Source of the DNA: Sphingopyxis sp. PAMC25046
GTDB lineage: Bacteria; Pseudomonadota; Alphaproteobacteria; Sphingomonadales; Sphingomonadaceae
Length of the DNA stretch: 64,000 nucleotides
NCBI RefSeq assembly: GCF_004795895.1
Contig: NZ_CP039250.1
Span: 2,170,001 to 2,234,000 of the forward strand
Direction: 5' to 3'
Under the pieces are notes generated by a model. It was not told the origin of the DNA, made no database searches, and worked only from the letters and a program-made list of their open reading frames with translations. Numbering within the stretch: the first letter of the stretch is position 1; every line of letters begins with the position of its first letter. The translations under genes were made by a program, and so were the position numbers. Below are positions 7,338 through 12,577 of the stretch, one piece after another.

Positions 7338-7910
7338 ATGGAAGCCCTGTTCACCTCAACCGCGGTCGTCGCGCTCGCTGAAATCGGCGACAAGACGCAG
7401 CTCCTCGCGATACTGCTCGCGACGCGTTTCAGGAGGCCCCTGCCGATCATATTGGGCATATTGGTCGCGACGCTCGCCAATCATGCGCTCGCGGCGCTGC
7501 TCGGCGCGTCCGCAGCCGCCTTTCTCGACAGCCCGGTCTTTCGCTATGCGATCGGCATCTCGTTCATCGCGATGGCGGCTTGGACGCTGATCCCCGACTC
7601 ATTCGATGACGACGAGGCGCCGAAGCCGCGCTTCGGGGCGTTCCTGACCACGCTTGTCGCCTTTTTCCTCGTCGAGATGGGCGACAAGACGCAGGTGGCG
7701 ACGATCGCTCTCGGCGCACAATATCACGACGTCGTCGCGGTCACCGCGGGGACGACGCTCGGCATGATGATTGCCAATGTGCCGGCGATCTTCCTTGGCA
7801 ACGAACTGCTGAAACGCGTAGATTTCGCGAAGGTGCGCCTCGTCGCGGCGGGCCTGTTTTTAGCGATCGGTCTGTGGGTGCTCGCGCAGACCGCGGGCTG
7901 GTTCGGCTAG
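7338..7910 (+). CDS. GDT1/TMEM165 (UPF0016) family manganese exporter
   Basis: A 190-residue membrane protein with the two diagnostic, internally repeated motifs: EIGDKTQ at residues 15-21 and EMGDKTQ at residues 113-119. These lie in two inverted halves of three helices each and form the cation path. Bacterial members (for example MneA) export Mn2+ and guard against manganese toxicity. The yybP-ykoY riboswitch directly upstream independently supports Mn2+ as substrate. The ATG is preceded by GGAG. The 3' end overlaps the convergent galE by four bases. Confidence 0.92.
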   Translation: MEALFTSTAVVALAEIGDKTQLLAILLATRFRRPLPIILGILVATLANHALAALLGASAAAFLDSPVFRYAIGISFIAMAAWTLIPDSFDDDEAPKPRFGAFLTTLVAFFLVEMGDKTQVATIALGAQYHDVVAVTAGTTLGMMIANVPAIFLGNELLKRVDFAKVRLVAAGLFLAIGLWVLAQTAGWFG

Positions 7911-9012: not shown

Positions 9013-9038
9013 GTAACTTTCGCACCTTCTCCCGCGAA
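9013..9038 (+). promoter_or_regulatory. candidate SigF-type ECF promoter of the buf operon
   Basis: GTAACT at 9013-9018 and CGAA at 9035-9038 are separated by 16 bases, 54 bases upstream of the bufA ATG. The spacing and both boxes resemble the motif I recall for Caulobacter SigF promoters (GTAACC-N16-CGAA), and the operon itself encodes a SigF-like factor. This suggests autoregulated transcription of the whole operon. Confidence 0.6.
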
Positions 9039-9091
9039 CCCATGACGATGCCATCCTCCGCATCACATATTTTTCTCGAAGGGAGATAATC

Positions 9092-9388
9092 ATGACCAAT
9101 GCACTGAAACTGTCGCTCGCCGCTTCGGCCGTCCTCGCCATGGCCGCGGGCACCGCAATCGGCGGAACCGCTGTCGCCGCTGAGGGCGCCAAGGAAAAAT
9201 GCTACGGCGTCGCGCTGAAGGGCAAGAATGATTGCGCCGCCGGACCGGGCACGAGCTGCGCCGGCACCTCGACCGTCGACTATCAGGGCAATGCCTGGAA
9301 GCATGTCCCTGCCGGCAGCTGCACCAAGATGGGCGGCACGCTGACCGCGCACAAGGGCAACGCCAAGCCGGTCGCCAAGAAGGGCTGA
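9092..9388 (+). CDS. bufA: bufferin-type metallophore precursor (DUF2282, BufA1-like)
   Basis: A 98-residue precursor with a signal peptide (about residues 1-30, ending AVAA) and exactly four cysteines in the mature part: C37, C48, C56 and C77. They sit in the contexts [23 protein letters not shown] and [10 protein letters not shown], which match DUF2282 bufferins. In characterised members the maturation enzymes BufB/BufC convert central cysteines to thiooxazoles, and the exported peptide binds copper in the periplasm. A good ribosome site (GGGAG) precedes the ATG. It is the first gene of a six-gene operon whose downstream genes supply the enzymes and the regulator. Only one bufA is present. 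Confidence 0.9.
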
Positions 9389-9393
9389 CGCGC

Positions 9394-10257
9394 GTGACCG
9401 TTTCCCTGACTTCGCCGTTGCCCGCACGCGCCGGCATCGGGCTCAAACCGCAGCACTATGCCGATGTGCTGGCGGCGGCGGAGCAGGGAACGGCGCCCGC
9501 CTGGGCCGAAGTCCACCCCCAGAATTACTTCGGCGCGGGCGGGCCGCCGCACCGCTGGCTGACCGCGATCGCCGAGCATCTGCCGCTGAGTTTCCATTCG
9601 GTCGGGCTGTCGCTGGGATCTGCGTTGGGCGCGGACGAGGGCGAGCTCGAAGCGCTGGCGGCGCTTTGCCGCCGCTATAATCCTGCGATGGTTTCCGATC
9701 ATCTGAGCTGGAGCAACGGGCCCAACGACAAGTTTCCGGACCTGCTGCCGATTCCCTATAGCCACGCGGCGCTCGATCATTTCACTGCCGAGGTCGGCCG
9801 CGTGCAGGACCGGCTGCGCCGGCGGATCCTGATCGAAAATCCCTCGCGCTATCTCGCCTATGCCGGCGACGACTGGGACGAGGTCGATTTCCTGCACGAG
9901 CTTTGCCGGCGTGGCGGCTGCGGCCTGCTGCTCGATATCAACAATGTCGAGGTTTCGGCCTTCAATCTCGGGCTCGATCCGGTGGCGTGGTTGGGCGCCT
10001 TCGACCCGCGCCATGTCGGCGAAATTCATGTCGCGGGGCATGTCGTCAAGAACGACGATATGGGCGGTACGATCGCGATCGACGATCATGGGTCGCCCGT
10101 GCGCGCGAGTTGCTGGGACCTGCTGGCCCGATTCCTCGACCGATCCGGCCCGAGGCCCGTGCTGGTCGAATGGGATAGCGAAATTCCCGATTACACGACC
10201 TTGATCGCGGAGGTGGCGAAGGCCGACGCACTGCTGCGGGCGCCCGCTTATGCTTGA
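9394..10257 (+). CDS. bufB: MNIO family enzyme BufB (DUF692)
   Basis: A 287-residue DUF692 protein, predicted to be a multinuclear non-heme iron-dependent oxidase that modifies cysteines of the bufferin precursor. Typical family segments are GIGLKPQHY at the start, EVHPQNYFG, HSVGLSLG, VSDHLSW, IENPSRY, LLLDINNVEVSAFN and EIHVAGH; their His, Asp and Glu residues would hold the metal cluster in a TIM barrel. I chose the GTG at 9394, six bases after the bufA stop, because homologous sequence begins just after it. An upstream in-frame opening would overlap bufA and lacks family similarity. The 3' end overlaps bufC by eight bases. Confidence 0.9.
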   Translation: MTVSLTSPLPARAGIGLKPQHYADVLAAAEQGTAPAWAEVHPQNYFGAGGPPHRWLTAIAEHLPLSFHSVGLSLGSALGADEGELEALAALCRRYNPAMVSDHLSWSNGPNDKFPDLLPIPYSHAALDHFTAEVGRVQDRLRRRILIENPSRYLAYAGDDWDEVDFLHELCRRGGCGLLLDINNVEVSAFNLGLDPVAWLGAFDPRHVGEIHVAGHVVKNDDMGGTIAIDDHGSPVRASCWDLLARFLDRSGPRPVLVEWDSEIPDYTTLIAEVAKADALLRAPAYA

Positions 10258-10948
10258 GCAGGGGCAGGCGGCAATAGCTGCGACCTTGCTGCGCGGCCCC
10301 GCCCATCTGCCGCCCGACCTGTTTGCGGGAGGCGAGGCCGCCGTGCTGCGCGGCCTTCGCGTTCACGCCAACACCATATCGCACGCACGACTCGTCGCGC
10401 TCGAAGAGACGTTTCCGCGCACCCGTGCTTATCTGGGCGACGAGGAATTCAACCTTCTGTCGCACCGCTTTGTCGAAGAAGGCGGGGCGGAACGCCGGTC
10501 GTTGAACGACATCGGCGCGACCTTTGCCGAACGGCTCGCCAATCCGCGCGCCGCCGACCTCGCGCGCGTTGAATGGGCCTGGCTCGAAAGCTATCATGCA
10601 GCCGATGCACCCGCGCTGGCGCTGCCCGAACTGCTCGGCCTCGGCGAAGCCGGCCTACTAAGCCTTCCGGTCCGGCTTCACCCGGCAACGCGTGTCGTGG
10701 TGCTTGCCAGCGACGCCGCGCCGGTGGTTGATCCGGCCTTTGCGCCCGATACGCGGGCGCTGCTCGTAACGCGCCCCGACGCCGACGTCCGCCTGTTCGC
10801 GATCGAGCCCGTCGCTGTGGCGGCGCTCGGCATGGCGCAAGAAATCGCACCGATCGGTAACCTCATCGCGCATCTCGCCGAACAGCATCCCGACGGCGGC
10901 GCGGCCATCGCGGCGCTGATCGAGACCGGGGCTTTCGAAAGGGTTTGA
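10250..10948 (+). CDS. bufC: BufC, DUF2063 partner of the MNIO enzyme
   Basis: A 232-residue protein with the DUF2063 N-terminal pattern: FAGGEAAVLRGLRVHANTIS-type sequence, then LEETFPRTRAYLGDEEFNLL. In bufferin systems and related MNIO pathways this protein presents the precursor peptide to the oxidase. The older database name calls it DNA-binding, but its position in the operon argues for a recognition role here. The start overlaps bufB by eight bases, consistent with coupled translation and a BufB-BufC complex. No transmembrane helix is seen. Confidence 0.85.
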   Translation: MLEQGQAAIAATLLRGPAHLPPDLFAGGEAAVLRGLRVHANTISHARLVALEETFPRTRAYLGDEEFNLLSHRFVEEGGAERRSLNDIGATFAERLANPRAADLARVEWAWLESYHAADAPALALPELLGLGEAGLLSLPVRLHPATRVVVLASDAAPVVDPAFAPDTRALLVTRPDADVRLFAIEPVAVAALGMAQEIAPIGNLIAHLAEQHPDGGAAIAALIETGAFERV

Positions 10949-10951
10949 GCG

Positions 10952-11410
10952 ATGAACGCGATTGCGCGATTTTATGACAGGGGCGTAGCGATCGCCGGAT
11001 CGCGGCTTGCCGAAGGGTTCGCACTGTTGCTGCTGCGCGTCGCACTCGCGGGCGTCTTCTGGCGATCGGGGCAGACGAAGGTGGTCGAGGGCAGTTTCCT
11101 GCAGATCGATCCGTCGCAATATGACCTGTTCCGCAGCGAATTTTCCGGATTACCGCTCGATCCCGCGATCGCGGTGCCGCTCACGGCCTTTTCCGAGCAT
11201 CTGTTCCCCGCGCTGCTGCTCCTCGGCCTCGCGACGCGCGTTTCGGCGGGCGCCTTGCTCGTGATGACGCTCGTTATCCAGATTTTCGTTTTTCCCGACG
11301 CCTGGTGGCCCGTCCATTCACTGTGGGCGGCGATGGCGGCGATCCTGATCGCTCGCGGCGGCGGACTGTTCTCGCTCGACGCGCTGATTGCTAGGGTGCG
11401 CGCGAAATGA
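10952..11410 (+). CDS. DoxX family membrane protein of the buf operon
   Basis: A 152-residue DoxX-like protein with four predicted helices: about residues 17-35 (FALLLLRVALAGVFWRSGQTK), 65-85, 88-105 and 112-130. DoxX proteins are common companions of DUF2282/DUF692/DUF2063 operons, including the gold- and copper-induced operon of Caulobacter. Their biochemical role there is not settled; a redox or membrane-quinone function is often suggested. It begins four bases after bufC and overlaps the sigma-factor gene by four bases (ATGA). Confidence 0.85.
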   Translation: MNAIARFYDRGVAIAGSRLAEGFALLLLRVALAGVFWRSGQTKVVEGSFLQIDPSQYDLFRSEFSGLPLDPAIAVPLTAFSEHLFPALLLLGLATRVSAGALLVMTLVIQIFVFPDAWWPVHSLWAAMAAILIARGGGLFSLDALIARVRAK

Positions 11411-11928
11411 GCATCGACGAACCTTCGCTGGCGCGCTTGATGGCCGCATCGCAGCGGGGGGATCGCAGCGCCTATCGCGCGCTGCTCGTCGATTGCCGCA
11501 AATGGCTCGAACGTTATTTCGCGCGGCGGATCGCGCCGCACCATATCGACGACCTCGTGCAGGAAACGCTCGTGTCGATGCACCGCAAGCTTGCGACATG
11601 GGACAGCGGGCGGGCGTTTCTGCCGTGGCTCGCGGCGATTGCGCGTTACCGCTGGATCGACATGCTGCGTCGCCAGCGTGACGAGGCCGAACTCGGCGAC
11701 AATGATGCAGCGGTCGGCGCCGAGGATGAAGCGATCCATGCGCGGCTGAGCATCGATCATCTGCTGACGCTGTTGCCGCCAAAGCAGGCGCAGGCGATCA
11801 CGCTGGTCAAGATCGAAGGGGCGTCGATCGCCGAGGCATCGCAGATTTGCGGGCAGAGCGAGTCGCTCGTCAAAGTGAATATCCACCGCGGGCTCAAGAA
11901 GCTCGCCGAACTGATTGAAAGCGAATGA
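11407..11928 (+). CDS. sigF: ECF RNA polymerase sigma factor, SigF type
   Basis: A 173-residue sigma-70 family member of the extracytoplasmic-function type. Region 2 contains HHIDDLVQETLVSMHRKLATWD and LPWLAAIARYRWIDMLRR; region 4 contains LPPKQAQAITLVKIEGASIAEASQ followed by the helix-turn-helix. There is no region 1 or 3. In Caulobacter the SigF/NrsF pair controls the orthologous operon and responds to chromium, cadmium, gold or copper stress. The gene overlaps doxX by four bases and is followed after one base by its probable anti-sigma gene. Confidence 0.88.
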   Translation: MSIDEPSLARLMAASQRGDRSAYRALLVDCRKWLERYFARRIAPHHIDDLVQETLVSMHRKLATWDSGRAFLPWLAAIARYRWIDMLRRQRDEAELGDNDAAVGAEDEAIHARLSIDHLLTLLPPKQAQAITLVKIEGASIAEASQICGQSESLVKVNIHRGLKKLAELIESE

Positions 11929-11929
11929 G

Positions 11930-12577
11930 ATGAAGGACGCATCGATCGACGATCTGATCGACGAGCTGGCGGGGGAACTGACGCCCGTTCGCCCGCGCCG
12001 CGTCGCGCGCGGATCCGCATGGGTCGCCGCCGGCTGGGTGGCGGGCGCCGCCGCCTTGCTGCTGATCTTCGGGCTGCGCGAGGATCTCGCGGTGCGCGGA
12101 ATGCCGCCCCTTTCAATGCTCGCCTTCTGGCTGACCGCCGCAACCGGCCTCGCGGCGACATGGAGCGCACTGCGCATGGGCCTACCCGGCGTCGGGCGCG
12201 ATTATGGCGGCTGGCGTTGGGCCGTCGGCGCCTCGCTGTCGCTGCCGCTAGCGGCCCTCGTCGCGTGCATCACCGACGGCCATGCGGCGATGGAATCCGC
12301 GCGCCACGGCTTTGGCCTACGCTGCCTCTTGCAAGGCGTCGCATCGGGCCTCGGCGTCGGCGCGGCGCTGTTCTTCTGGCTCAAGGCCGGCGCGCCGACG
12401 TCGCCGACGCGCGCGGGCTGGGTCATCGGCATCGCCGCGGGCGCTGCGGGCGCGACGATCGTTGCGCTTCATTGCGCGAGCGATGACGTCGTCCACATCG
12501 CGCTCTGGCACGGCGCTGCCGTCCTGTTTTCGGCGTTTGCGGGGCGGCTGGTTCTGCCGCGTTTTCTACGCTGGTAG
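11930..12577 (+). CDS. nrsF: NrsF-type membrane anti-sigma factor (DUF1109)
   Basis: A 215-residue protein with a cytoplasmic N-terminus of about 28 residues (MKDASIDDLIDELAGELTPV) and six membrane helices, the DUF1109 architecture. Two cysteines, C132 in HGFGLRCLL and C182 in ALHCASDD, lie at the positions expected for the metal- or redox-sensing cysteines of Caulobacter NrsF. It would hold the preceding sigma factor inactive until metal stress. I chose the ATG at 11930, immediately after the sigF stop; a TTG at 11915 is possible but less likely. It is the last gene of the operon. Confidence 0.88.
   Translation: MKDASIDDLIDELAGELTPVRPRRVARGSAWVAAGWVAGAAALLLIFGLREDLAVRGMPPLSMLAFWLTAATGLAATWSALRMGLPGVGRDYGGWRWAVGASLSLPLAALVACITDGHAAMESARHGFGLRCLLQGVASGLGVGAALFFWLKAGAPTSPTRAGWVIGIAAGAAGATIVALHCASDDVVHIALWHGAAVLFSAFAGRLVLPRFLRW

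Follow-up and report, generated by a model that had tools for sequence, protein, structure and literature searches.

A SigF-type promoter motif within bufC of a sphingomonad bufferin operon

When a sigma factor gene lies near the end of a tightly packed operon, behind the genes that the factor is thought to serve, does its autoregulation depend on a message started far upstream? The question is raised by an operon for a bufferin, a recently described type of operon, in Sphingopyxis sp. PAMC25046. It occupies positions 9,013 to 12,577 of the stretch analysed here, 64,000 nucleotides (nt) of contig NZ_CP039250.1 (2,170,001 to 2,234,000; the window). The original prediction had taken its six genes for a single, self-amplifying transcriptional unit preceded by a promoter for an extracytoplasmic function (ECF) sigma factor. 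Such a motif is indeed found before bufA (P1), and a second one lies within bufC (P2). We consider it very likely that this is a copper/heavy-metal stress operon in which SigF would read the nested P1 and P2, with P2 driving doxX-sigF-nrsF separately. The operon is of a known type, and the new element is the embedded, conserved second promoter motif predicted to act in its control. The features are as follows.

P1, 9013..9038, + strand: predicted SigF promoter GTAACT-N16-CGAA, 5′ of bufA
bufA, 9092..9388, + strand: DUF2282 Buf1 bufferin precursor, 98 amino acids, four conserved Cys
bufB, 9394..10257, + strand: MNIO bufferin maturase, GTG start
bufC, 10250..10948, + strand: DUF2063 MNIO partner protein, with P2 in codons 203-211
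P2, 10857..10882, + strand: predicted intragenic SigF promoter GTAACC-N16-CGAA in bufC, 69 nt 5′ of the doxX ATG
doxX, 10952..11410, + strand: DoxX-family membrane protein
sigF, 11407..11928, + strand: ECF sigma factor
nrsF, 11930..12577, + strand: membrane anti-sigma factor

The SigF consensus of Caulobacter is GTAACC-N16-CGAA, and 5′ rapid amplification of cDNA ends (RACE) has mapped the motif before two SigF targets (passages of PMC3511200). P2 matches this consensus perfectly. Is the match more than chance? DUF2282 occurs in 66 of the 199 family genomes, the window genome included; all DUF2282 places listed for these genomes were fetched, and their genes were mapped with profiles derived from the proteins of the window. 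Among 43 loci with the collinear gene order, the strict motif is present in bufC in 40, or 38 of 41 once the duplicate copies of two genomes that entered twice (L056/L182 and L094/L195) are removed. The same loci have it before nrsF in three cases and, apart from the bufA, bufC and nrsF sites, nowhere else on the sense strand and nowhere on the antisense strand. Its presence follows what lies downstream of bufC. Where doxX-sigF comes next, the motif is found in 40 of 43 bufC genes (a set that overlaps the collinear one but differs from it, leaving out the duplicates and adding L261 and L175, the latter cut before nrsF), and where bufC is last in its unit, in none of 44 (Fisher p 1.2e-21, which overstates independence because the rows are related). 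It was seen in two of 25 bufC genes followed by doxX without sigF, and in one of the two truncated at the end of a contig. When the final 300 nt of every bufC were recoded according to the codon usage of its own locus, the motif arose in 1.9% of cases on average, and in 0.4% for the bufC of the window.

The codons themselves are more telling. The two boxes of P2 touch five BufC codons within a stretch of nine. An alignment of 40 bufC genes gives 228 third-base columns. Only a lone Trp column is better conserved than the columns of the four codons that complete the -35 and -10 boxes, which hold ranks two to five, whereas the five codons between the boxes vary. At the first box codon all 40 genes specify G, C, R or S, and 39 have T as the third base; since these residues are exactly those of NGT codons, the BufC protein follows the promoter. 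In the window this codon is GGT, which the six genes use for only two of their 102 glycines. All this is seen in a protein of 39% mean identity (one bufC per genus, 11 genera), and in divergent loci the residues and codons at the P2 position differ. The nucleotides of P2 are conserved beyond the needs of the protein, the pattern of a selected DNA element within coding sequence.

Could P1 nevertheless be the only active promoter, the P2 sequence arising by chance from conservation of the BufC peptide? Neighbouring genes of the operon overlap or stand 1-5 bp apart, as suits a single transcript, and the residues N, L and E are conserved in collinear BufC. Protein constraint does not explain, however, why wobble bases are best conserved exactly at the box codons and not in the spacer, and the motif is missing from every unit-final bufC. 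We regard this alternative as improbable. A single-transcript operon would hold no SigF-type motif between bufA and nrsF, and P2 lies between them. The conserved motif in bufC speaks against the claim of one unit, since it predicts separate, SigF-dependent transcription of doxX-sigF-nrsF, an outcome that the original prediction had named as contrary to it. The cluster is probably read as more than one message, and transcripts from P1 may still read through into doxX-sigF-nrsF. A search of the operon for internal sigma-70 promoters and terminators gave weak consensus matches only, which were not used.

The bufC site might also be a nucleotide element of another kind, such as the site of another regulator or a signal for RNA processing or pausing, given that the support for P2 comes from sequence. 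Against this, P2 has the boxes and the spacing of the motif that precedes bufA and that, elsewhere in the family, precedes sigF, and it is this motif that RACE placed before the two Caulobacter targets. A function other than that of a SigF promoter is in our opinion very improbable.

Several observations weigh against the proposed role of P2. Two Rhizobium loci of the same gene order have no P2; in L194 the motif is present only in shifted form, with a spacer one base longer, and in L068 it is elsewhere in bufC. P2 is present in L078 and L087 with no sigF behind doxX, and its tie to sigF is therefore not a strict one. Conservation may also in part reflect constraint on the protein, as N, L and E are conserved residues. 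Finally, in 12 divergent loci outside the family (L245-L255, L264) the motif precedes bufA in nine and sigF in only four, which makes the autoregulation rule described next an observation on the family.

Within the family, the position of the motif relative to sigF is nearly invariant in one respect: it is found 50-949 nt upstream of sigF in 56 of 57 sigF-nrsF loci, a count that leaves out sigma matches with no nrsF behind them (L128, L259, L260) and NrsF loci not fetched in full (e.g., G020, G167, G097). It may immediately precede sigF, stand ahead of bufA-doxX-sigF, or be embedded in bufC or in doxX. In the exception, L086, the spacer of the motif is one base shorter. In the stand-alone doxX-sigF-nrsF locus L262 the motif lies 108 nt before the doxX match, and in Sphingopyxis this distance is 112-116 nt. 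P2 looks like the promoter of the doxX-sigF-nrsF module itself, which would have been kept or regained when the units fused. We think it likely, with slightly less assurance than for the operon of the window, that in sphingomonads a SigF promoter is overprinted on bufC and, alongside the protein, dictates the five box-touched codons, and that, however the family loci are rearranged, sigF stays no more than 1 kb from a promoter read by SigF.

Some loci have motifs of additional interest. L061, L065 and L066, all of one genus, have a further SigF-type motif in doxX, at a distance of 64-94 nt from the sigF match downstream. In L070, L072 and L082 a motif lies in an unusually long gap between sigF and nrsF, possibly a separate promoter of the anti-sigma gene. 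In five loci from four genomes (L057, L084, L097, L099, L115), all three motifs per locus have CGT and not CGA in the -10 box, and their sigma factor differs at several residues, including a W/M-to-L change in the ARYR(L/W)-ID stretch. Promoter and sigma factor look as if they had changed in concert; assigning particular residues to the CGT box was given up, as the genomes are probably related and the comparison is confounded by descent.

How general is the promoter ahead of bufA? The motif reported there by the original prediction is GTAACT-N16-CGAA, one base away from the Caulobacter consensus (passages of PMC3511200). P1 has counterparts in other Sphingopyxis loci, and its strict form precedes bufA in 35 of the 43 collinear loci; the remaining eight have tandem bufA genes or a different base after GTAAC. 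When the spacer is allowed to vary by three, a SigF-type motif is found 5′ of bufA in 85 of 90 genes from family loci holding sigF-nrsF, and in 262 of 16,435 random windows (1.6%). The five genes lacking it (in L070, L075, L088, L101 and L114) are in our reading tandem copies or a split match. Where a locus holds bufB and no sigF, the motif precedes 10 of 21 bufA genes; for stand-alone bufA genes the figure is seven of 23. Among stand-alone bufA genes of genomes whose fetched loci hold nrsF, 12 of 18 are without it (L083, L116-L122 and L127 among them). Four genomes show no NrsF match at all (G128, G149, G191, G192), and none of their five bufA genes is preceded by the motif. That motif and NrsF go together is contradicted by G022 (67% complete), where no NrsF was found and one of two bufA genes has the motif, and by G097 and G197, where bufA lacks it despite an NrsF elsewhere in the genome. 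The proposed self-amplifying loop has the support of the sequence.

The identities of the genes hold up well. All six are present, co-directional and tightly packed, and each product passes its curated Pfam cut-off: BufA DUF2282 (87.5 bits against 22.4), BufB MbnB_TglH_ChrH (305.6), BufC DUF2063 (48.5), DoxX DoxX (58), SigF Sigma70_r4_2 (51.4) and NrsF NrsF (PF06532, DUF1109; 130.5). BufB also passes the NCBIfam model MNIO_BufB (325.6, cut-off 310). Under other NCBIfam models, BufA scores below the BufA2 equivalog cut-off (29.6 against 60 bits) and is not of BufA2 type by that measure, the nrsF product is below the NrsF equivalog cut-off (48.5 against 300), and the matches to HvfC and HvfX are under theirs. 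Solved relatives of BufB include the DUF692 structure 3bww and MbnB; a search of solved chains gave no match for BufC. Among the named BufB proteins found, that of Sphingopyxis sp. LC363 is the nearest, at 91% identity. The N-terminus of BufA resembles a signal peptide by eye. Its four cysteines (37, 48, 56 and 77), which the original prediction had proposed to align, are conserved in 117, 117, 119 and 116 of 121 relatives. Cys132 and Cys182 of NrsF are kept in 81 of 82 relatives, at nearly the positions of the important Caulobacter cysteines (131 and 181, according to passages on that protein). That there is a single BufA is true of the whole genome, a single contig with one DUF2282, one MNIO and one NrsF gene in total. 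The gene set supports assignment as a Buf1 bufferin operon with a SigF/NrsF pair, the product of which is probably a peptide that binds copper, and by likeness to Caulobacter and Sinorhizobium the sigma factor would be ECF16-like.

The operon itself is ordinary and its gene order is not rare, since sigma/NrsF genes in Buf1 clusters have already been published and the collinear six-gene order is found in 17 of the 66 DUF2282-positive family genomes, the window genome included. Other arrangements in the family are divergent with two bufA genes, begin with sigF-nrsF, or have no sigF nearby. BufB also led to 35 loci in named genomes, and the order is complete in 26 of these, including two from Rhizobium. 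A class-wide sample had NrsF in 45 of 240 genomes; in the 29 class-wide loci read, bufA was divergent from sigF-nrsF in 11, collinear in two and not within the available 1.5 kb in 16.

How does the arrangement compare with known systems? As described in passages of PMC3511200 and PMC8224329, the Caulobacter SigF-NrsF system with CC3254-CC3257 (bufA-bufB-bufC-doxX) shares the six kinds of genes, the promoter motif and the two NrsF cysteines. There, however, sigF-nrsF (CC3253-CC3252) is an operon with its own promoter, whereas here the pair comes last in the buf operon and the motif is in bufC; Caulobacter possesses another buf operon besides, and SigF there also controls a sulfoxide reductase. 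In Cupriavidus metallidurans, gigPABT and rpoQ-rsqA comprise the same kinds of genes, and the gig operon is induced by gold and copper; the units are divergent, reverse-transcription PCR shows the gig transcript ending with gigT, and the passages concerned do not show control by RpoQ (PMC10304878). In Sinorhizobium meliloti, RpoE7 (ECF16) and SMb20530-SMb20527 also form divergent units, with TGTAAC...CGAA ahead of both, and the passages report no intragenic promoter (PMC6180224). The Buf1 clusters of Antoine et al. share the sigma/NrsF genes and the core bufA, MNIO, DUF2063 and DoxX genes, and the part of the survey text available does not mention promoter placement (PMC12452194). Our search of titles and abstract openings found no promoter described inside bufC; the supplementary lists of intragenic starts from Caulobacter tagRNA-seq were not covered by it.

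What would the two promoters do? In the literature, including passages of PMC12452194, thiooxazoles form on two central cysteines of Buf1. Going by characterised relatives, BufB and BufC would convert the central cysteines of BufA to metal-binding thiooxazoles, and BufA would be exported. As in Caulobacter, SigF would be kept at the membrane by NrsF, to be released once metal acts on the two conserved cysteines of the anti-sigma factor. Freed SigF would then read P1, yielding BufA, BufB and BufC, and P2 in the 3′ part of bufC, yielding DoxX and more SigF and NrsF. If P2 drives doxX-sigF-nrsF separately, their autoregulation would not depend on the amount of long P1 transcript that reaches these genes. 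Silent mutations should then uncouple sigma-factor autoregulation from bufferin production. The locus would further illustrate how a regulatory loop can persist through the fusion of separate transcription units, and it cautions against assuming that a compact buf operon is transcribed as one message.

Is metal the signal in Sphingopyxis? The Caulobacter regulon is induced by Cr, Cd and Cu (passages of PMC3511200 and PMC8224329), and copper raises sigF and nrsF there by a log2 of about 1.8-4.7 (a passage of PMC8224329); the 2012 metal-stress study states that Caulobacter SigF is not strongly auto-regulated (PMC3511200). By this likeness the operon of the window would be metal-induced. It might instead answer mainly to thiol, sulfur or oxidative stress, with copper induction secondary; DoxX in the operon fits such a role, as does a SigF-type motif upstream of a pyridine nucleotide-disulphide oxidoreductase gene in five of 25 family genomes. 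We consider this unlikely, less so than the two alternatives to P2 discussed above.

That oxidoreductase gene, presumably glutathione reductase, is the best extra candidate for a wider SigF regulon. The motif precedes the conserved start region by 82-147 nt, at G000:C1:2360433-2360458 (L141) and in G042, G033, G037 and G047; 59 genomes were searched, giving 30 loci, of which five were dropped for want of a recognised gene start. A genome scan returned 17 exact matches to GTAACY-N16-CGAA against eight for the reversed pattern, which indicates that many are probably chance. Several sites match motif sites in two relatives, but they fall within long conserved alignments that do not show conservation of the motif itself, and the idea of a wider regulon was given up. 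At G000:C1:332400-335400 (L134), a motif with no matching site in relatives is upstream of a gene for a small Cys/Met-containing protein; two small proteins of the locus have no match in a Pfam search. Its neighbours, named by eye, are a MerR-like regulator and a glutaredoxin-like membrane protein, and L134 is possibly a metal locus. Closer to the operon, upstream of bufA, positions 7338-7910 of the window hold a gene for a GDT1-family divalent cation/proton antiporter, with a sugar-epimerase-like gene on the opposite strand between it and bufA.
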